Positions 9,408 to 51,263 of a stretch of 64,000 nucleotides of DNA are shown here, in pieces. Numbering within the stretch: the stretch's first letter is position 1; each line of letters begins with the position of its first letter. The notes under the pieces are model-generated. The model did not search any database. It was not told the origin of the DNA and saw only the letters and a list, made by a program, of their open reading frames with translations. This DNA is from Microbacterium sp. BH-3-3-3 (GTDB lineage Bacteria; Actinomycetota; Actinomycetes; Actinomycetales; Microbacteriaceae): assembly GCF_007679045.1 (NCBI RefSeq), contig NZ_VEFS01000001.1, positions 305,520 through 369,519 of the forward strand, given 5' to 3'. A program made the position numbers and the translations under genes.

Positions 9408-11303
9408 ATGACCGGGCCCGACCCCTCCACCCTGCTCGCCGACCTCGCGGCGGGATCCGCCCCCTTCGCCCTCATCGCCCGTGACGGCGAGTCGGTCGAG
9501 GTGCTCACCGGCGATGTCGTCGACGTCGAGCTGCTCGCCGACATCCCGCTGATCGACGCCTCGGGCGCGCCGCGCGAGGTGCTCGCCCTCGTGCCGTACC
9601 GCCAGGTGCGCGAGCGCGGGTTCGTCTGCCACGACGACGGCGCGCCGCTGCGGTGCCTCGTGATCGACGAGCGGGTGGCCCTGCCGCGCGCCGAGGCCAT
9701 GGCCGCCCTGCCCTCCTCCCCCGTGCCGCTCGACGACGCCGGCTTCGACCTCGCCGACGAGGACTACGCCGACATCGTGCGCCGGGTGATCGCCGACGAG
9801 ATCGGTCGCGGCGAGGGGGCGAACTTCGTGATCCGTCGCGACTTCGTCGCCGGCGTCGACGTCGATCCGCGCGTCGCCGCCCTCACGTGGTTCCGCGCTC
9901 TGCTCGAGCACGAGAAGGGCGCCTACTGGACCTTCGCGGTCGTGACCGAGGGGCACATCGCCGTGGGCGCGAGCCCCGAGGCGCACGTGAGCGCCAAAGA
10001 CGGCATCGTCACGATGAACCCCATCTCGGGCACCTTCCGTCACCCCGCCGGCGGGGCGACCGCCGAGACCCTCGCGGAATTCCTGCGCTCGACCAAAGAG
10101 ACCGAAGAGCTCTTCATGGTCGTCGACGAGGAGCTGAAGATGATGAGCGCCGTCTGCAGCGACGGCGGACGCATCACGGGCCCGCACCTCAAAGAGATGT
10201 CGCGCCTGACCCACACCGAGTACATGCTGCGCGGCCGCAGCGACCTCGACCCGCGCGACATCCTGCGCGAGACGATGTTCGCCCCCACCGTGACCGGCTC
10301 GCCCATGCAGAACGCGTGCACGGTGATCGCGCGCCACGAGACGACGCCGCGCGGGTACTACTCCGGCGTCGCCGCGCTCTTCACCCCGAACGGCAACGCC
10401 GAGGGGCCCACGCACGACCTCGACGCCCCGATCCTCATCCGCACGGCCTATCTGGTGGACGGCCGCCTGCGCGTGCCGGTGGGAGCCACCCTCGTGCGCC
10501 ACTCCGACCCCTACGGCGAGGTCGGCGAGACCCACGGCAAGGCCGCCGGCGTGCTCGGTGCGATCGGCGCCATCCCCCGCGACGTGCCCGTGGCCCCCGC
10601 CGACGCCGATCCCGACGCCCCGGCCACCGCACGTCGGCCGCTGGCCGAGGATCCCGCGATCGCCGAGCTGCTGGCATCCCGCAACGAACGCCTCGCGCCG
10701 TTCTGGATGAACCCGCAGGACCCCGACGGATCGGGTCCCTTCGCCGGTCGCACCGCCCTCGTGGTCGACGCCGAGGACCGCTTCACCACGATGCTCGCGC
10801 ACCAGCTGCGTCACCTCGGCCTCGACACCCGCATCGTCCACTGGTCGGAGGCGTCGGATGCCGACGTCGACGGCGCCGACCTCGTCGTGTCGGGCCCCGG
10901 GCCCGGCGACCCGCGCGACGACAGCGCGCGCATGAGCGCGATGCGCCACGTGGTCTCGCGGCGGCTGACGAACGACGCCCCGCTGCTCGCGGTGTGCCTC
11001 AGCCACCAGATCCTCGCCGACCGGCTCGGCCTCGACCTCGCCCCGCTCGCGCAGCCCCACCAGGGTCTGCAGAAGAGCGTCGACGTGTTCGGCGAGCCCG
11101 CCTCGATCGGGTTCTACAACACCTTCACGGCACGGGCGACGGATGCCGCGGCCCCGGGCGTCGACATCGCCGCGGATGCCGAGACGGGCGACGTCTACGC
11201 GCTGCGGGGCCCCGGCTTCGCGAGCGTGCAGGGCCACCTGGAGTCGATCCTGTCGCGCGACGGCATGCGCACCCTCGAGCGTCTCATCGCCCACGCGCTC
11301 TGA
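9408..11303 (+). CDS. PhzE-like anthranilate/ADIC synthase (fused synthase and glutaminase)
   Basis: The 631-residue fusion joins a chorismate-binding synthase domain (about residues 100-420) to a class I glutamine amidotransferase domain (about 450-631). Synthase landmarks are RRVIADEIGRGEGANFVI, EHEKGAYWTF, MNPISGTFRHP, MVVDEELKMM and ILRETMFAPTVTGSP. In the glutaminase domain the nucleophile is in LAVCLSHQIL and the His/Glu pair is in VQGHLESIL. These match the layout of the phenazine enzyme PhzE more than a stand-alone TrpE. PhzE makes aminodeoxyisochorismate, whereas other family members make anthranilate. No phenazine genes are visible, and the tryptophan attenuator in front argues that this copy feeds tryptophan. 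I chose the ATG at 9408, 45 bases after the attenuator. Confidence 0.88.
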   Translation: MTGPDPSTLLADLAAGSAPFALIARDGESVEVLTGDVVDVELLADIPLIDASGAPREVLALVPYRQVRERGFVCHDDGAPLRCLVIDERVALPRAEAMAALPSSPVPLDDAGFDLADEDYADIVRRVIADEIGRGEGANFVIRRDFVAGVDVDPRVAALTWFRALLEHEKGAYWTFAVVTEGHIAVGASPEAHVSAKDGIVTMNPISGTFRHPAGGATAETLAEFLRSTKETEELFMVVDEELKMMSAVCSDGGRITGPHLKEMSRLTHTEYMLRGRSDLDPRDILRETMFAPTVTGSPMQNACTVIARHETTPRGYYSGVAALFTPNGNAEGPTHDLDAPILIRTAYLVDGRLRVPVGATLVRHSDPYGEVGETHGKAAGVLGAIGAIPRDVPVAPADADPDAPATARRPLAEDPAIAELLASRNERLAPFWMNPQDPDGSGPFAGRTALVVDAEDRFTTMLAHQLRHLGLDTRIVHWSEASDADVDGADLVVSGPGPGDPRDDSARMSAMRHVVSRRLTNDAPLLAVCLSHQILADRLGLDLAPLAQPHQGLQKSVDVFGEPASIGFYNTFTARATDAAAPGVDIAADAETGDVYALRGPGFASVQGHLESILSRDGMRTLERLIAHAL

Positions 11304-11309
11304 CGCGCG

Positions 11310-11500
11310 CCGAGGTGGCTGAGCCTGTCGAAGCCCCCGCCACCCGCGAACTCCCGGGCCCTTCGACAAGCTCAGGGACCTCTGCTCCCAGGGTGGCTGA
11401 GCCCGTCGAAGCCCCGCCACCCGCGAACTCCCGGGCCCTTCGACAAGCTCAGGGACCTCTGTTCCCAGGGTGGCTGAGCCCGTCGAAGCCCCCGCCACCC
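11310..11500. repeat. palindromic repeat cluster, about 77-bp composite period
   Basis: Three copies in one orientation (GGTGGCTGAGCCTGTCGAAG, or with CCCGTCG, starting near 11314, 11392 and 11469) alternate with two inverted copies (CCTTCGACAAGCTCAGGGAC, starting at 11360 and 11437). The two orientations are reverse complements of one core, so transcripts from either side can fold. The cluster fills the 210-base gap between two converging genes and may serve as their shared terminator. Confidence 0.9.
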
Positions 11501-11513
11501 GCGGCGCGGAGCG

Positions 11514-12830
11514 CTAGAGCAGCTGCACCGGGTTGAAGACGTCGGCGAGGAACAGCACCCCGCCCATGCCCACCAGCAGCACGACCACCACGAAGGTCAG
11601 GGGCACCAGCTTCGTCGCGTCGACCGGCCGGGCGACCGTGCCGCGCAGCCGCGCGAACCAGCGCTTGATGCCGTCCCACAGCGCGACGACGACGTGACCG
11701 CCGTCGAGGGGCAGCAGCGGGATGAGGTTGAACACGAACAGCGCGATGTTCAGCGCCGCGAGCAGACCGATGATCGCGCCCACGCGATCGAGGATCGGCG
11801 CGTCGATGGCGGCGAACTCGCCGGCCAGGCGCCCGGCGCCGACGACGCTCAGCGGACCGTTCGGGTCGCGCGGCTGACCGGTGAACAGGTCGACGGCCGT
11901 GTCGTAGACGCGCACCGGGAGCTGCGTCATGATCTGCGCGACGCTGCCCACCTGCTGGATGGTCGCCTCGGGGCCGGCCCAGATCGGCTGCGGAACCAAA
12001 GTCTGCTGCGCGGTGAGCCCGGCGAAGCCGAGGGTCTCGTACTCGGGCGCGCCGGAGGCGTCGGTGACGGCCTTGCCCTGCGCGTCGGTGACGGCGCGAT
12101 CGGTCTGCGCCGGCGTCACGCTGACCGTCCGCTGCGTGCCGTCGCGGTCGATGACGACCGACAGCGCCTGGCCCGGCGACTTCTGGATGATCGCCGCGGC
12201 TTCTGCGAACGTCGACACCGGGGTCCCGTCGACCGACACGATCTTGTCGCCGGGCTGGATGCCGGCGGCGGCGGCCGGGGCGACGGGGTCGGTCGAGGTG
12301 CAGTCGGTGCGGTTGTCGCTGGCCGGGATCACGCACTGCGACACCGCCGCGACGGTCGTGGTGGCCGTGGCCACGCCGATACCGCTGAGCGCGATGGCAG
12401 AGAGCACGAACGCCAGGATGAGGTTCATGATCGGTCCGCCGAGCATGACGATGATGCGCTTGTAGACCGGCAGCTTGTAGAAGACGCGGTCGTCGGCGGC
12501 GATCAACGTCTCGGCGTTCGCGTCGCGGGCGTCCTGCACCATCGTGGCGAAGAAGCGCGAGCGCTTCTTCTCGGGGGTGCCGTCGTCGGGGGCCGGCGGG
12601 TACATGCCCGCCATCGAGATGAATCCCCCCAGGGGAAGCAGCTTGAAGCCGTACTCGGTCTCGCCGATGCGCTTGGACCACAGCGTCGGTCCGAAGCCGA
12701 TCATGTACTGGCCCACGCGCACGCCGAAGAGCTTGGCGGGCAGCAGATGTCCGATCTCGTGCAGCGCGATCGAAACGGCGAGTCCGACGACGAGCACGAC
12801 GACGCCGATGAGGAACGCGATCGCAGTCAC
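11514..12830 (-). CDS. rseP: RIP metalloprotease RseP (site-2 protease, M50 family)
   Basis: This is an intramembrane zinc protease that cuts membrane-bound regulators, often anti-sigma factors, after a first outside cut. It has 438 residues. Helix 1 carries the HExxH site (VSIALHEIGHLLPAKLFGVR). One PDZ domain lies at about residues 180-270 (AAAAGIQPGDKIVSVDGTPV), and the third zinc ligand lies in NLIPLLPLDGGHVV near residue 370. The start is the GTG at 12830, supported by a TATCGT box exactly 6 bases upstream. It is close to dxr, as in many actinobacteria, but here a MurE-like gene and a repeat array intervene. The putative anti-sigma protein at 3597-4802 is a possible but unproven substrate. 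Confidence 0.94.
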   Translation of the reverse strand: MTAIAFLIGVVVLVVGLAVSIALHEIGHLLPAKLFGVRVGQYMIGFGPTLWSKRIGETEYGFKLLPLGGFISMAGMYPPAPDDGTPEKKRSRFFATMVQDARDANAETLIAADDRVFYKLPVYKRIIVMLGGPIMNLILAFVLSAIALSGIGVATATTTVAAVSQCVIPASDNRTDCTSTDPVAPAAAAGIQPGDKIVSVDGTPVSTFAEAAAIIQKSPGQALSVVIDRDGTQRTVSVTPAQTDRAVTDAQGKAVTDASGAPEYETLGFAGLTAQQTLVPQPIWAGPEATIQQVGSVAQIMTQLPVRVYDTAVDLFTGQPRDPNGPLSVVGAGRLAGEFAAIDAPILDRVGAIIGLLAALNIALFVFNLIPLLPLDGGHVVVALWDGIKRWFARLRGTVARPVDATKLVPLTFVVVVLLVGMGGVLFLADVFNPVQLL

Positions 12831-12917: not shown

Positions 12918-14582
12918 ATGTCCTCCGACGCCCCCTCGAACCTGCCGCCCGTCCTCCGACCGGAGCGTCCGCCCCGCCGCGACCTCGCCGAGCTCGCCCG
13001 CCGCTACGGCGTGCGCACCGTGGGAGATGTCGAGGGCACGACCCTGACCGGCATCACGCTGGCCACCGCCGATCTGCGCGCGGGCGAGGCCTTCGTGGCG
13101 ATCCGCGGCGTCAACCGTCACGGCGCGGAGTTCGCCGCCACCGCCGCCGAGCGCGGCGCCGTCGCGGTGATCACCGACGACGCGGGCGCCGAGATCGCCG
13201 CCCCCACGGGGCTTCCCATCGTCGTGGTCGACGACCCGCGCGCGCTGCTCGGCGACCTGTCGGCCTGGGTCTACGGCACTGGCCCCGACGACCGGCTTCC
13301 TCAACTGTTGGCGACCACCGGCACCAACGGTAAGACGAGCGTCTCGCACCTGCTCGAGGGCATCCTCGGCCAGCTCGGCGTCGTGACCGGACTGTCGTCG
13401 ACCGCCGAGCGTCACATCGCGGGTGAGGTCATCGTTTCTCGACTGACCACGCCCGAGGCCTCGGAGTTCCACGCCCTGCTCGCCCTCATGCGCGAACGAG
13501 GCGTCGAAGCCGTCGCCGTCGAGGTCAGCGCGCAGGCCCTCACCCGGCACCGCGTCGACGGCCTCGTCTTCGACCTCGCGGGCTTCACCAACCTCACGCA
13601 CGACCACCTCGACGACTACGCCGACATGCGCGAGTACTTCGAGGCGAAGCTCCCCCTCTTCCGCCCCGATCGCGCGCACCGCGGCGTGGTGTGCCTCGAC
13701 TCCGCCTCGGGCGCCGAGATCGCCGCGCGGGCCGAGATCCCCGTCGTGACCATCGCGACCCCCGCCATCGCCGAAGACGCCGCCTCCGCGGCATCCGCCG
13801 ACTGGACCGTCGAGATCGTGGACGAACGACAGGAGGGCACCGAGTTCACCCTCAGCGACGGCAAGGGTCGCGCGTTGACCACCGTCGTGCCCGTGATCGG
13901 CCGACACATGGCCGCCAACGCGGGCCTCGCGATCGTCATGCTGCTCGAGGTCGGCTACACCTGGGAGCACGTGTTCAGCACCCTCGACGGCGAGCGCATC
14001 GACGCGTCGTTGCCGGGTCGCACGCAGCTCATCTCGGGCCCCGAGGGTCCCGCGGTCTACGTCGACTTCGGTCACTCCCCCGACGCCTTCGAGAAGACGC
14101 TCGCCGCCGTGCGCCGCGTCACGCCCGGCCGCGTCGTCATGCTCTTCGGCGCCGACGGCGACCGCGACGCCACGAAGCGCCACGACATGGGGCGCACCGC
14201 GGTCGAGGGCAGCGACATCCTCATCGTGACCGATCACCACCCGCGTCACGAGAATCCCGACACGATCCGCGAGGTGCTCGTCGAGGGCGCTCGTCGTGCG
14301 CGTCCGGATGCCGAGATCCATGAGTTCACCCCGCCCGAGCGCGCGATCCTCGAGGCCGTGAAACTCGTCGGCGAGGGCGACGCGATCCTCTGGGCCGGCC
14401 CCGGGCACCAGGACTACCGCGACATCCGCGGAGTGCGCACGCCCTACTCGGCGCGCGAGCTGTCCCGCCGTGCCCTGCGGGCCGCAGGGTGGGCTGTGCC
14501 CGACCCCCAGTGGCCCGTGCCGTACCCGGCCGACAGCACGCCGTCGTCCGACCCCGAGCGCCCGGTCGACTTCCCCGCCTGA
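12918..14582 (+). CDS. MurE-like Mur ligase (peptidoglycan peptide ligase family)
   Basis: The 554-residue protein has the three Mur-ligase domains: an N-terminal UDP-sugar domain (TLTGITLATADLRAGEAFVA), a central ATPase with the P-loop TTGTNGKTSVSHLLEG near residue 133, and a C-terminal domain. MurE joins the third amino acid to the peptidoglycan stem. The amino-acid signature, usually DNPR for diaminopimelate or DNPA-like for lysine, reads HHPR here (TDHHPRHENPDTIRE, near residue 440). The gene is outside any cell-division cluster, so it may be a second paralog or act on another amino acid. I chose the ATG at 12918 over one 3 codons earlier because of promoter spacing. Confidence 0.83.
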   Translation: MSSDAPSNLPPVLRPERPPRRDLAELARRYGVRTVGDVEGTTLTGITLATADLRAGEAFVAIRGVNRHGAEFAATAAERGAVAVITDDAGAEIAAPTGLPIVVVDDPRALLGDLSAWVYGTGPDDRLPQLLATTGTNGKTSVSHLLEGILGQLGVVTGLSSTAERHIAGEVIVSRLTTPEASEFHALLALMRERGVEAVAVEVSAQALTRHRVDGLVFDLAGFTNLTHDHLDDYADMREYFEAKLPLFRPDRAHRGVVCLDSASGAEIAARAEIPVVTIATPAIAEDAASAASADWTVEIVDERQEGTEFTLSDGKGRALTTVVPVIGRHMAANAGLAIVMLLEVGYTWEHVFSTLDGERIDASLPGRTQLISGPEGPAVYVDFGHSPDAFEKTLAAVRRVTPGRVVMLFGADGDRDATKRHDMGRTAVEGSDILIVTDHHPRHENPDTIREVLVEGARRARPDAEIHEFTPPERAILEAVKLVGEGDAILWAGPGHQDYRDIRGVRTPYSARELSRRALRAAGWAVPDPQWPVPYPADSTPSSDPERPVDFPA

Positions 14583-14612
14583 GAACGCGAGGGCCGCGCC
14601 CCTTCGCACGCG

Positions 14613-15452
14613 AGGTCGCTGAGCCCGTCGAAGGCCCCGGGGCCGACGCACGCCCGAACGCAAGGTGGCTGAGCCTGTCGAAGGCACCGGGGCTGCGCAC
14701 GCGCTAACGCAAGGTGGCTGAGCCTGTCGAAGCCACCGGGGCCTGCGCACGCGCGAACGCGAGGTGGCTGAGCCCGTCGAAGCCACCGGGGCCGACGCGC
14801 GCGCGAACGCAAGGTGGCTGAGCCTGTCGAAGCCACCGTGGCCGGCGCACGCCCGAACGCGAGGTGGCTGAGCCTGTCGAAGCCACCGGAGCAAACGCAC
14901 GCCCGAACGCAAGGTGGCTGAGCCCGTCGAAGCCACCGGAGCAAACGCACGCCCGAACGCAAGGTGGCTGAGCCTGTCGAAGCCACCGGGGCCAACGCAC
15001 GCCCGGCCCCTTCGACAAGCTCAGGGACCTCCCGAACGCGAAGGTCCAACGCACGCGCGAACGCAAGGTGGCTGAGCCTGTCGAAGCCACCGGGGCCAAC
15101 GCACGCCCGGCCCCTTCGACAAGCTCAGGGACCTCCCGAACGCGAAGGTCCAACGCACGCGCGAACGCAAGGTGGCTGAGCCTGTCGAAGCCACCGGGGC
15201 CAACGCACGCCCGGTCCCTTCGACAAGCTCAGGGACCTCACGAACGCGAAGGTCCAACGCACGCGCGAACGCAAGGTGGCTGAGCCTGTCGAAGCCACCG
15301 GGACCCATGTAAGCCCGGTCCCTTCGACAAGCTCAGGGACCTCCCGAACACGAGGGTCCAGCGCACGCCCGGTCCCTTCGACAAGTTCAGGGACCTCCCG
15401 AACGCGAGGGTCCAACGCACGCCCGGTCCCTTCGACAAGCTCAGAGACCTCC
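14613..15452. repeat. modular palindromic repeat array (50-bp and 54-bp units)
   Basis: The 881-base gap between converging genes is almost filled by repeats. Eight direct copies of a 50-bp unit A (core GGTGGCTGAGCCTGTCGAAG) start at 14614, 14664, 14713, 14763, 14813, 14863, 14913 and 14963. From 14963 on, A alternates with an inverted 54-bp unit B (core CCTTCGACAAGCTCAGGGAC), giving a 104-bp period: A at 14963, 15067, 15171 and 15275; B at 15009, 15113, 15217 and 15321. Two more B units follow at 15375 and 15429. Spacers are also conserved (for example CAACGCACGC), so the units are tandem duplications, not CRISPR spacers. No protein is encoded. Confidence 0.93.
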
Positions 15453-15463
15453 TACCCCCGGGG

Positions 15464-16546
15464 TCAGCGCGCGGCGATGATCTCGTCGGCGGTGCGGCGC
15501 GCCCAGGTCTCGGCCTCGGCGAGCGACGCGCGCGTGAGCTGCGCCGGGGCCTCGTGGCGGTCGACGACGCGCTCGATGAGCTCGACGATGTCGAGGAAGC
15601 CGAGGCGCCCCTCGTGGAACGCGTCGACGGCCTGCTCGTTCGCGGCGTTGAACACGGCCGGGTAGGTCGCCCCCGCGCGTCCGACGCGCTTGGCGAGCGC
15701 GACCGAGCCGAAGGCCTCCTCGTCGAGCGGCTCGAAGGTCCACTGCGAGGCGCGGGTCCAGTCCAGGGGCACTCCGACGCCGCCGACGCGGTGCGGCCAG
15801 TCGAGGCCGAGCGAGATGGGCAGGCGCATGTCGGGCGGCGATGCCTGCGCGATCGTCGAGCCGTCGACGAACTCGACCATCGAGTGCACGATCGACTGCG
15901 GGTGCACGGTGACGTCGATGCGGTCGTAGTCGACGTCGAACAGCAGATGCGCCTCGATCACCTCGAGGCCCTTGTTGACGAGGGTCGCGGAGTTCGTCGT
16001 GACGACGCGGCCCATGTCCCACGTCGGGTGGGCGAGCGCCTCGGCGGGGGTGACGTCGACGAGCTGATCGCGCGAGCGTCCACGGAAGGGGCCTCCGGAT
16101 GCCGTGAGCACGAGCCGGCGCACCTCCGACGCCTCGCCCGAGCGCAACGCCTGCGCGATGGCTGAGTGCTCGGAGTCGACGGGGACGATCTGTCCCGGGG
16201 CAGCGAGCGCGGTGACGAGGTCGCCGCCGACGATCAACGACTCCTTGTTGGCGAGGGCGAGAGTGCGCCCTTCTTCGAGCGCGGCGATGGTGGGGCCGAG
16301 CCCGACCGAGCCGGTGATCCCGTTGAGCACCACGTCGGCCTTGACGTCGCGGACCAGCTGCTCGGCCTCGACCGCGCCGAGGGCGAGGTGCTCGACGCCG
16401 AACTCGCGCGCCTGCGCCTCGACGCCGGCACGGTCGCTGCCGGCGGCGAGGCCCACGACCTCGAAGCGTTCGGGGTTGGCCCGGATGACGTCGAGCGCCT
16501 GCGTGCCGATCGAACCGGTGGACCCGAGGATGAGGACGCGGCGCAT
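15464..16546 (-). CDS. dxr: 1-deoxy-D-xylulose-5-phosphate reductoisomerase
   Basis: Dxr converts DXP to MEP in the second step of the non-mevalonate isoprenoid pathway using NADPH and a divalent metal. The protein has 360 residues. The dinucleotide fold is at the N-terminus ([19 protein letters not shown]), followed by [16 protein letters not shown], the catalytic metal region around [12 protein letters not shown], and [16 protein letters not shown]. The ATG at 16546 lies exactly 6 bases behind a TAGGCT box, so the gene is probably leaderless. Its 3' end abuts the long repeat array. Confidence 0.97.
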
Positions 16547-26267: not shown

Positions 26268-26332
26268 GGGGCTGAGCCCGTCGAAGAGGGTCCCTGAGCC
26301 TGTCGAAGGGGGTCCCTGAGCCTGTCGAAGGG
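26268..26332. repeat. three head-to-tail copies of the palindromic repeat core
   Basis: One partial copy (CTGAGCCCGTCGAAG from 26272) is followed by two exact 22-bp copies back to back (26289-26310 and 26311-26332, GGTCCCTGAGCCTGTCGAAG plus GG). The same 22-mer occurs once more, inside the end of atpF (38856-38877). The copies lie in the gap between converging glpK and the next minus-strand gene. Confidence 0.9.
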
Positions 26333-49064: not shown

Positions 49065-51263
49065 TCAGCGGATGCTGTTGTCGTCACCGCCGCGCGAGGG
49101 CGCCGGGATCGACTTCTGCATCTGCACGAGGAACTCGACGTTGGACTGCGTCTCCTTGAGCTTTCCGAGCACGACCTCGAGGGCCTGCTGGGGGTCGAGA
49201 CCGGCCAGCGCGCGACGGAGCTTCCAGGTGATCTTGACCTCGTCGCTCGACAGCAGCATCTCTTCGCGACGGGTGCTCGACGCGTTGACGTCGACCGCCG
49301 GGAAGATGCGCTTGTCGGCGAGCTGGCGGCTCAGGCGCAGTTCGCTGTTGCCGGTGCCCTTGAACTCCTCGAAGATCACGTCGTCCATCTTGGACCCGGT
49401 CTCCACGAGCGCCGTGGCCAGGATCGTGAGCGATCCGCCGTTCTCGATGTTGCGCGCGGCGCCGAAGAAGCGCTTGGGCGGGTACAGCGCCGAGGCGTCG
49501 ACACCGCCGGAGAGCACGCGGCCCGAGGTGGGGGCGGCGAGGTTGTACGCGCGGCCGAGGCGGGTGATCGAGTCGAGCAGCACGACGACGTCGCGGCCGA
49601 GCTCGACGAGACGCTTCGCGCGCTCGATGGCCAGCTCGGCGACCGTGGTGTGGTCTTCGGCCGGACGGTCGAAGGTCGAGGCGATGACCTCGCCGCGCAC
49701 GGTGCGCTGCATGTCGGTGACCTCTTCGGGACGCTCGTCGACGAGCACGACCATGAGGTGGACCTCGGGGTTGTTCGTCGCGATCGCGTTGGCGATCTGC
49801 TGCAGCACGATCGTCTTACCGGCCTTGGGGGGCGCGACGATCAGGCCGCGCTGGCCCTTGCCGACCGGGGCGACCAGGTCGATGATGCGCTGCGTGAGCT
49901 TCTCGGGGCCGGTCTCGAGGCGCAGGCGCTCCTGGGGGTACAGGGGCGTGAGGTTGTTGAACTCGACGCGGGTGGCGGCGTCGTCGACCGACAGGCCGTT
50001 GATCGAGTCGACCTGCACGAGCGCGTTGTACTTCTGACGGCCCTGCTGCTCGCCCTCGCGGGGCTGCTTGATGGCGCCGACGACGGCGTCGCCCTTGCGG
50101 AGGTTGTACTTCTTGACCTGACCGAGCGAGACGTAGACGTCGCTCGGGCCGGGCAGGTAGCCGGTGGTGCGCACGAACGCGTAGTTGTCGAGCACGTCGA
50201 GCACGCCGGCGATGGGGACGAGCACGTCGTCTTCGCCGATCTCGGTCTCGAACTCATCGCCCGCGGTGGTCTGGCCGCGGCGCTTGTTGCGCTGACGGTT
50301 GCGGCTGTTGGCTGCGCCGCCCTGCTGCTGCTGCGCCTGCTGGCCGTTCTGCGCGTTGTCGCGCTGGGCACCGTCGCGCTGGCCGCCGTCACGCTGGCCG
50401 CCGTCGCGCTGGCCGCCGTCGCGCTGTGCGCCGTTGTCGCGACCGCCCTCGCGCTGGCCGCCCTGCTGCTGCGGGGCCTCGGCCTCGTCGGCGGCGGGCT
50501 GAGCGACGTCGGCCTTGTCGGCGTCGGTCTTGTTGCGGTTGCGGTTGCGCGAGCGGCTGCGGCCACGGCCACGGGCCGGGGTCTCGTCGGCCTGCTCGGC
50601 ACCGTCGGCGGGCGCGGCGTCTGCCTGCTCGGCGTCGGCCTGCTCGGCGTCGCCGTCAGCGGTCGCGGCGTCGGCGGCGGGAACCTCGGTGGCGGCAGCC
50701 TCGTCGACCGCGGGGGTCTCGGTGCTGGCGTCGGCGTCGGCGGCCACGTCGGCGGCCGTGGTGACCGGGGTGGTCGCGGGCTCGTCGGTCACGGCGTCGG
50801 CGGCAGCGGTCTCGGCGGCGGGCGCCTCGGCGGCGGCGGCCTCAGCGGCGGCCTTCTCTTCAGCGGCGGCGGCCTCGGCGGCGGCCGTCTCTTCGGCGGT
50901 CGCGCTCTTGGCACGGCGCGGAGCACGCTTGCGCGGGGCGCGCGCGGGCTTCTCGACCGGCGCCGCCTCTACGGCGGCGGGCTCTGCGGCGACCTCGGCG
51001 GCGGGCGCCTCCGCAGCGGCGGGCGCGTCGGCGACCGTCTCGGCCGGGGCCTCGGCGGCGAGAGCGTCATCGGTGAACAGTGCCTCGGGGGCGGCGTCGG
51101 CCGGGGCCTCGTCGGCCTCCGGGGCCGCTTCGCCCTCGGCCGCAGCGGGCGCGTCGGTCTGTTCGGTGTCGGTGCCCTCCACCGCAGCCGTGGGCTGCTC
51201 TTCGGTGGGGGTCTCGGCGCCCTCGGGCGCGTCGACGGGCTGGGTCTCGGAGATGGACTCCAC
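49065..51263 (-). CDS. rho: transcription termination factor Rho with long disordered N-terminus
   Basis: Rho is the hexameric RNA translocase that ends transcription. The core begins near residue 340 with the RNA-binding part ([20 protein letters not shown]). The P-loop is in [20 protein letters not shown] near residue 460, and the secondary RNA loop region includes [20 protein letters not shown]. The first 340 residues are unlike E. coli Rho: an Ala/Glu/Pro-rich acidic half, then an Arg/Asn/Gln/Gly-rich part with five-residue GGQRD repeats and a basic [10 protein letters not shown] patch. Such extensions are known in actinobacterial Rho and bind RNA or drive condensation. The start, [15 protein letters not shown], is the GTG at 51263. 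Confidence 0.96.
50370..50450. repeat. 15-bp tandem repeat inside rho
   Basis: About four to five near-identical 15-bp units on the plus strand (CGCTGGCCGCCGT plus 2 bases) encode successive GGQRD or GAQRD pentapeptides in the Rho N-terminal extension. Such runs can change length by slippage between strains. Confidence 0.75.

Follow-up and report, generated by a model that had tools for sequence, protein, structure and literature searches.

What fills the gap between murE and dxr in Microbacterium sp. BH-3-3-3, and does it serve the two genes that converge on it? The window (by which we mean the whole stretch of DNA analyzed, 64,000 nt of contig NZ_VEFS01000001.1) carries at this locus an array of 17 hairpin units, 11 on the forward and six on the reverse strand, built around the near-constant 15-bp core CTGAGCYYGTCGAAG. 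The array occupies the 881 bp (14583-15463) that separate the murE stop (14582) from the dxr stop (15464). A units read GGTGG-CTGAGCCTGTCGAAG-CCACC and B units GGTCC-CTGAGCTTGTCGAAG-GGACC, with the outermost units altered (Table 1).

Table 1. Positions of the murE-dxr array, its parts, the bordering genes and two further clusters in the window
Feature	Position	Strand	Basis
murE, UDP-N-acetylmuramyl-tripeptide synthetase, left convergent gene	12918-14582	+	TIGR01085 337.8 bits, cut-off 257.3; gene call
Entire array, 17 palindromic units, gap filled	14583-15463	both strands	
Eight direct A units, stem GGTGG-core-CCACC, first two diverged	14614-14987	+	
Four A(+)/B(-) inverted pairs, period 104	14963-15341	both strands	
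Two extra B units, stem GGTCC or GGTCT-core-GGACC, cores 15376 and 15430, spacing 54	15371-15449	-	
dxr, 1-deoxy-D-xylulose-5-phosphate reductoisomerase, right convergent gene	15464-16546	-	TIGR00243 362.9 bits, cut-off 315.7; gene call
Second, smaller cluster, five cores (+ - + - +), between convergent genes 9408-11303 (+) and 11514-12830 (-)	11314-11503		
Third cluster, three direct units, period 22, convergent gap	26272-26332	+	

A first-pass annotation had described eight direct 50-bp copies followed by alternating A and B units at a 104-bp period and two extra 54-bp units. The core positions bear this out, save for one spacing of 49: the direct A cores start at 14619, 14669, 14718, 14768, 14818, 14868, 14918 and 14968 (spacings 50, 49, 50, 50, 50, 50 and 50), and the eighth doubles as the A unit of the first inverted pair. 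In the pairs, A cores at 14968, 15072, 15176 and 15280 alternate with B cores at 15010, 15114, 15218 and 15322, 42 bp from A to B and 62 bp from B to A. The first of the extra B cores reads CTGAACTTGTCGAAG. The annotation had also called for a check of self-periodicity, and TRF recovered periods of 50, 104 and 54 bp. Allowing up to two mismatches, CTGAGCNTGTCGAAG matches the window 32 times against 0.77 expected, a count reached in none of 100 shuffles, which excludes chance. The proposed capacity for hairpins in either transcript is likewise supported: folded as RNA, the gap gave z = -7.96 on the forward and -9.80 on the reverse strand, and none of 20 shuffles folded as well on either. The number of units is to be read with some caution since assembly has trouble with such arrays, as indicated by a 98-base run of N inside another core cluster and by contig C16, whose match to the murE-dxr array begins at its base 1. 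Elsewhere in the window, 15-bp and 33- to 42-bp tandem repeats are clustered at 50358-51060, probably in a low-complexity coding region.

The core had been taken for a repeat of the host genome, and a genome-wide search confirms this, with 559 exact copies of CTGAGCYTGTCGAAG in 3.56 Mb (291 forward, 268 reverse) and none of the reversed pattern. A contiguous 409 kb with 393 called genes, which also holds the cluster with the N run, contains 117 cores (at most one mismatch) distributed over 15 intergenic clusters and five called genes; 112 of the 117 are intergenic. The murE-dxr array is the largest in this stretch, yet it is one among many: other clusters hold 14, 14, 13 and 12 cores, so the view that arrays of this regularity are unusual fails for the host genome. 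Unit spacing varies among host arrays from 22 to 80 bp or more. We also noted that the first 79,000 nt of contig C17 are rich in large arrays (64 cores in 79 kb).

Repetitive extragenic palindromes (REPs) are in general 20- to 40-bp palindromes of high copy number that lie mainly outside genes, a description that the copy number and intergenic location of this element match. The clustering of units in alternating orientation that defines BIMEs is seen in the murE-dxr array and in others, although the array differs from BIMEs in its long runs of one orientation (the eight A units and the two extra B units). We consider the array to be, most probably, a locally expanded BIME-like cluster of a dispersed REP-type palindrome.

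The element begins with a 5' tag (AGGT in the host); a pair of stem bases that covary with their partners follows, then the 15-bp core CTGAG-CYTGT-CGAAG, which is constant, and finally the partner bases of the stem. Single units, inverted pairs and arrays all occur. The tag stands in register two bases before the core, as AGGT in 167 of 192 host copies and as GGT in 178. The constant core is by itself an imperfect palindrome and would, if it folds as a hairpin, continue the stem with C-G and T-A pairs, two G.A mismatches (G.A, A.G) and a G-C pair beneath a five-base loop, CYTGT; a folding program left the inner 11 bases of the forward orientation unpaired. Both tandem G.A mismatches and the tetraloop CUUG are stable. 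In 104 distinct host copies, stem positions 1 and 2 pair in fractions of 0.89 and 0.96 (expected 0.46 and 0.50). Among 80 copies from many phyla, one per contig, the same positions pair in 0.88 and 0.82 (0.45 and 0.35 in shuffles; 0/2000 as high), position 3 in 0.49 (0.34; 6/2000) and position 6 in 0.39 (0.25; 4/2000), with positions 4, 5 and 7 at chance level. In the congener G029, position 1 covaries (0.93 versus 0.60) and position 2 is nearly invariant. A fixed core flanked by a covarying stem indicates that the folded form is what is recognized or kept. A search of Rfam gave five matches up to E 5, every one below the gathering score.

Sequence beyond the core and stem records how the arrays grew. 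Among units of the same stem class, flanks are 0.67 identical within arrays (158 pairs) and 0.35 between arrays (1494 pairs), and none of 300 label shuffles reached the within-array value. Because units of one array have flanks in common that other arrays lack, the arrays appear to have grown locally, in keeping with the growth by unit and double-unit duplication proposed in the first-pass annotation. Most host arrays contain both stem classes, GGTGG and GGTCC. Inverted pairs in the host genome favor one geometry, with 36 of 47 +- pairs spaced 42-44 bp apart; by orientation there are 47 +- and 39 -+ pairs in host arrays, 17 +- and 2 -+ in 80 contigs of many phyla, and 3 +- and 4 -+ in 80 viral contigs. 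The preferred pair spacing and the shared flanks fit local duplication of single units and inverted pairs. At this locus, an inverted pair would have landed between murE and dxr and then multiplied through unequal recombination or slippage during replication, initially in the form of single A units and A/B pairs.

In a sample of 59 genomes of the genus, the core occurs in 39, with at least 20 copies in 10 and none in 20 (range 0 to 559). The dxr end could be inspected in 16 genus genomes; murE adjoins it in 12, and the other four have a different neighbor and no core within 300 nt. Cores are absent from the murE-dxr gap in 11 of the 12 relatives, and one (G006) carries three. The 11 core-less gaps hold other sequences, several of them other palindromes. 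Two of these gaps (L056 in G009, L054 in G016) show palindromes with arms GCACAACTCC, GGAGTTGTGC or similar, by their look a second repeat family, and a third (L055 in G007) has a run of about 21 C.

Within the host genome, the position of the clusters relative to genes is far from even. Genes for these gap statistics, here and in G029, were called with our own hexamer gene finder rather than taken from the annotation, and its training sets were small for the G029 stretches and for host stretches beyond the 409 kb. In the 409 kb, clusters occupy 12 of 43 convergent gaps of at least 40 bp and none of 64 divergent ones; three lie in codirectional gaps (109 + 28 = 137), one of them in a 35-bp gap outside that count. 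For the excess in convergent gaps, Fisher p = 6.6e-8. Host stretches outside the 409 kb, which were partly picked for their cores, have cores in 5/15 convergent, 5/29 codirectional and 1/14 divergent gaps.

This placement speaks for a selected two-way terminator or insulator, which the cell would keep and enlarge to stop transcription of murE and dxr from colliding. The array does sit between convergent genes, and across the 12 core-bearing convergent gaps the nearest core lies within 50 nt of 18 of 24 gene ends, most of which leave no space for another hairpin; the hairpins fold on both strands. Most relatives, moreover, carry what by eye are unrelated hairpins in the murE-dxr gap, so a hairpin may be wanted there. 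However, the gaps of G012 and G015 measure only about 15 and 20 bp and have no notable hairpin, and a terminator scan of the array gap returned no hairpin with a U-tract, against 1.1 in shuffles; on that scan we reject a canonical intrinsic terminator. The idea of a stronger terminator also fared poorly in a comparison of 3' ends: those next to cores show less structure (-0.454 kcal/nt) than the remaining convergent 3' ends (-0.512 kcal/nt, p = 0.022). The very strong two-way transcription barrier suggested in the first-pass annotation gains no support from these two results. U-tract hairpins occur at 1/24 core ends and 2/62 other convergent ends, indicating that 3' ends in this host seldom show them either way. 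Nor is orientation constant, the element being sense to the upstream gene in 27 of 42 cases in the host and 3 of 18 in G029. This inconsistency argues against a strand-specific RNA function, which we reject, and weighs against the terminator as well.

We judge a selected terminator or insulator possible but unlikely. Tolerance of insertion behind genes accounts for the placement as well as selection does. Under the reading we prefer, a dispersed REP-type element with local amplification, any effect at the 3' ends would be incidental: hairpins beside both stop codons would form the 3' ends of both mRNAs, where they could block exonucleases or help termination. That such an effect matters to the cell is possible, but we lean against it.

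The array might instead bind a protein or extrude a DNA cruciform and so take part in chromosome structure. Binding of gyrase, IHF or DNA polymerase I is among the marks of a BIME, and a comparable role, with the first two, has been proposed for BIMEs. The regular spacing of the units would suit such a role, and conservation of the core in both sequence and pairing is expected of a protein target. Yet spacing within the host differs widely from array to array, and the spread in copy number across the genus, down to zero, speaks against an essential role; we regard this explanation as improbable.

Two features of the element lay outside the view of the first-pass annotation: its dispersal across phyla and its copies inside genes of a congener. 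The core was found in 28 of 396 genomes of the phylum sample (reversed control in 8), in 21 of 142 genomes of the class of Sphingomonas (reversed control 1) and in 37 of 148 of the phylum of Mucilaginibacter (reversed control 0), the genome at the center of each of the latter two samples having been chosen for its cores. Among the matches listed are Sphingomonadales, Bacteroidota, Chloroflexi, Cyanobacteria, candidate phyla and Actinobacteria, isolates included. From 80 core-bearing loci among those matches we hand-picked 50 for breadth and added six other genomes; all 56 carry the core, at 7 to 635 copies per genome (0 to 2 for the reversed control), a set selected on the core and hence no measure of prevalence. 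In the 50 hand-picked genomes, the general form CTGAGCN{2,4}GTCGAAG is present in 7 to 536 copies, with the reversed control again at 0 to 2. Loop-length variants CTGAGCNNNGTCGAAG occur in 35 of the 56 genomes, with high counts in a few, G504 (44), G354 (41), G484 (33) and G479 (31), and twice in the host. In G504, Mucilaginibacter lappiensis, the 44 copies with the three-base loop insert include many inverted pairs 43-44 bp apart, near the 42-44 bp of the host. A 221-bp query had no match in plasmids and phages at E 1e-3.

What moves such an element? For GTAG-type REPs of E. coli, Pseudomonas and Stenotrophomonas, the proposed mover is a Y1 transposase (RAYT), and the present element might belong to a classical REP or REPIN system driven by a RAYT, a Y1 HUH transposase, that was lost from the host or missed in it. 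The inverted pairs at genome-specific spacing, with +- orientation dominant across phyla, are REPIN-like. The element has in common with GTAG-type REPs its high copy number, mismatched hairpin and intergenic position 3' of genes. The Y1_Tnp profile (PF01797), however, found nothing in the host and nothing in 58 of 59 genus genomes, a search that a RAYT too divergent for the profile would escape; the sole positive genome (G041) has a single core, and none of the five genus genomes searched with more than 100 cores (G000, which is the host, G005, G019, G029 and G058) was positive. Among the 56 carriers across phyla, PF01797 was not found in 27, the richest among them; Plantibacter G505 (536 general cores) and Sphingomonas G465 (297) gave no match. 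In 142 alphaproteobacterial genomes core and profile show no association (positive in 5/21 genomes with the core and 27/121 without; Fisher p = 1.0), and when the retrieved flanks of 61 Y1 loci were inspected, a core turned up at one locus. The GTAG tag is no commoner than in shuffled flanks, in the host (9/192 on the 5' side against 11 in shuffles, 0/192 on the 3' side against 7) or in other phyla (0 and 3 of 114 at the two sides against 6 and 8).

In Bertels and Rainey (2011, PMC3116915), REPINs are likewise inverted doublets that form a hairpin with their spacer, but these doublets are linked to RAYTs, none of which was found in the window genome by the profile search; the mismatched hairpin also resembles the bulged E. 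coli REP as described in PMC8266576. With no PF01797 in the host, no association and no GTAG tag, we reject RAYT-driven mobility as the main account and give the lost or missed RAYT little credence; the mover appears to be other than the Y1 transposase proposed for GTAG-type REPs. A CRISPR-like or other acquired-spacer array, suggested by regular repeats at about 50 bp, is refuted by anatomy and has practically no probability, as the spacers repeat with the cores, the units invert and the 559 cores are scattered genome-wide.

The closest counterpart described so far is the CGTC-type REP (Di Nocera, De Gregorio and Rocco 2013, PMC3733652). That paper describes a group that includes Rickettsia RPE-4 and RPE-6 and Neisseria dRS3, with a stem of 8-9 bp, A-T at positions 1 and 2, a loop of 4-5 bases, an unpaired CCA tail and the tag forms CGTC, TGTC and CCTC. 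The same text reports inverted dimers, clustering in certain species, copies within genes, conv-REPs lying by both 3' ends and an apparent lack of a dedicated transposase; it names five phyla for these repeats, Actinobacteria not among them, and that word is absent from the text. The element of the window corresponds to this description in being a tagged short palindrome with a five-base loop (as in families 2 to 4) that forms inverted dimers, clusters, intragenic copies and conv-REPs and, as far as PF01797 goes, has no dedicated transposase. It differs in its host tag, AGGT, and in a host stem that starts with GGT rather than A-T.

In 115 copies from other contigs, the tag register holds CGTTCR 23 times, YGTCA 17 times (13 contigs), GGT 12 times, CCTCA seven times (seven contigs) and CGCTCR four times; shuffled flanks give 1.4 for GGT and no more than 0.1 for any of the longer tags, of five or six bases. 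YGTCA or CCTCA, which stand in the tag register of the core in 24 of these 115 copies from other phyla, occur in none of the 192 host copies; in G029 the tag is GGT in 54 of 61. Because forms of the CGTC tag occur in register, and because both show inverted dimers, copies at 3' ends and in genes and apparently no dedicated transposase, the element looks like a relative of the CGTC-type REPs that carries a different tag in this genus, and it may be a member of that kind. A text search of the literature did not find the core letters (14- and 15-base spellings), a weak negative in that figures lay outside the search. In S. wittichii, a species of the CGTC paper, the one stretch examined (the first 50 kb of plasmid pSWIT01) has no core.

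Copies inside genes are most apparent in G029, where 16 stretches contain 61 cores, 34 in gaps and 27 in called genes. Gaps with cores number 3/26 convergent, 12/90 codirectional and 0/43 divergent, a weaker convergent preference than in the host. Of the copies in genes, 25 of 27 are antisense to the gene; the sense strand of the element has a TGA in one frame, and the opposite strand is stop-free. Domains recognized in the carriers include those of PheT, ArgC, PutA, an HrpA-like helicase, RecF-like proteins and the Lhr helicase. In pheT and argC the element lies in frame, and orthologues are without it: the argC copy belongs to a segment that exceeds its counterpart in relatives such as G002 by about 75 bp, and most relatives lack the copy. 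In G005 a core occupies the argC site, and pheT contains a copy with one mismatch. Separately, argC of G003 (L255) has an unrelated palindromic-looking insert at the place where G029 and G005 have the core.

Compared across these genomes, the pheT and argC pattern resembles in-frame insertion at positions that vary between relatives, and the sites common to G029 and G005 could be old. In some congeners the element would be tolerated in frame, in exposed protein loops. The Rickettsia palindromic elements, according to PMC3733652, also insert in frame into conserved genes; those elements are found in Rickettsia, and the gene copies reported here are those of G029, with their largely antisense orientation. 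At five loci of G029 (L076, L079, L080, L081 and L086), where copies lie close to the ends of proteins, the encoded peptides are tandem and PSTGSGTQ- or LRQAQGP-like; in this genome the element thereby adds tails to proteins.

We propose that the element is a hairpin-forming sequence that spreads by moving or by being copied and is tolerated where it does no harm, downstream of genes and foremost between convergent ones. More tentatively, and with the balance somewhat against it, we speculate that a single hairpin element, with a CTGAG-N5(6)-CGAAG core, a covarying stem and a lineage-specific tag in fixed register, colonized many phyla without a RAYT, reached hundreds of copies and entered conserved genes in frame, moved by an undescribed, widespread machinery that acts on folded single strands; the array of the window would then be its local amplification record. 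What this teaches about the window is modest: its gap is filled by an expanded repeat cluster, and no special regulatory device. For REP-type repeats without a known mover, an open question since the CGTC repeats were described, the element offers a test system in a culturable-looking genus. Its copy number ranges from 0 to 559 among the 59 sampled genomes, which allows gene content to be compared, gene by gene, with the number of copies; the copies in pheT and argC mark insertion events.
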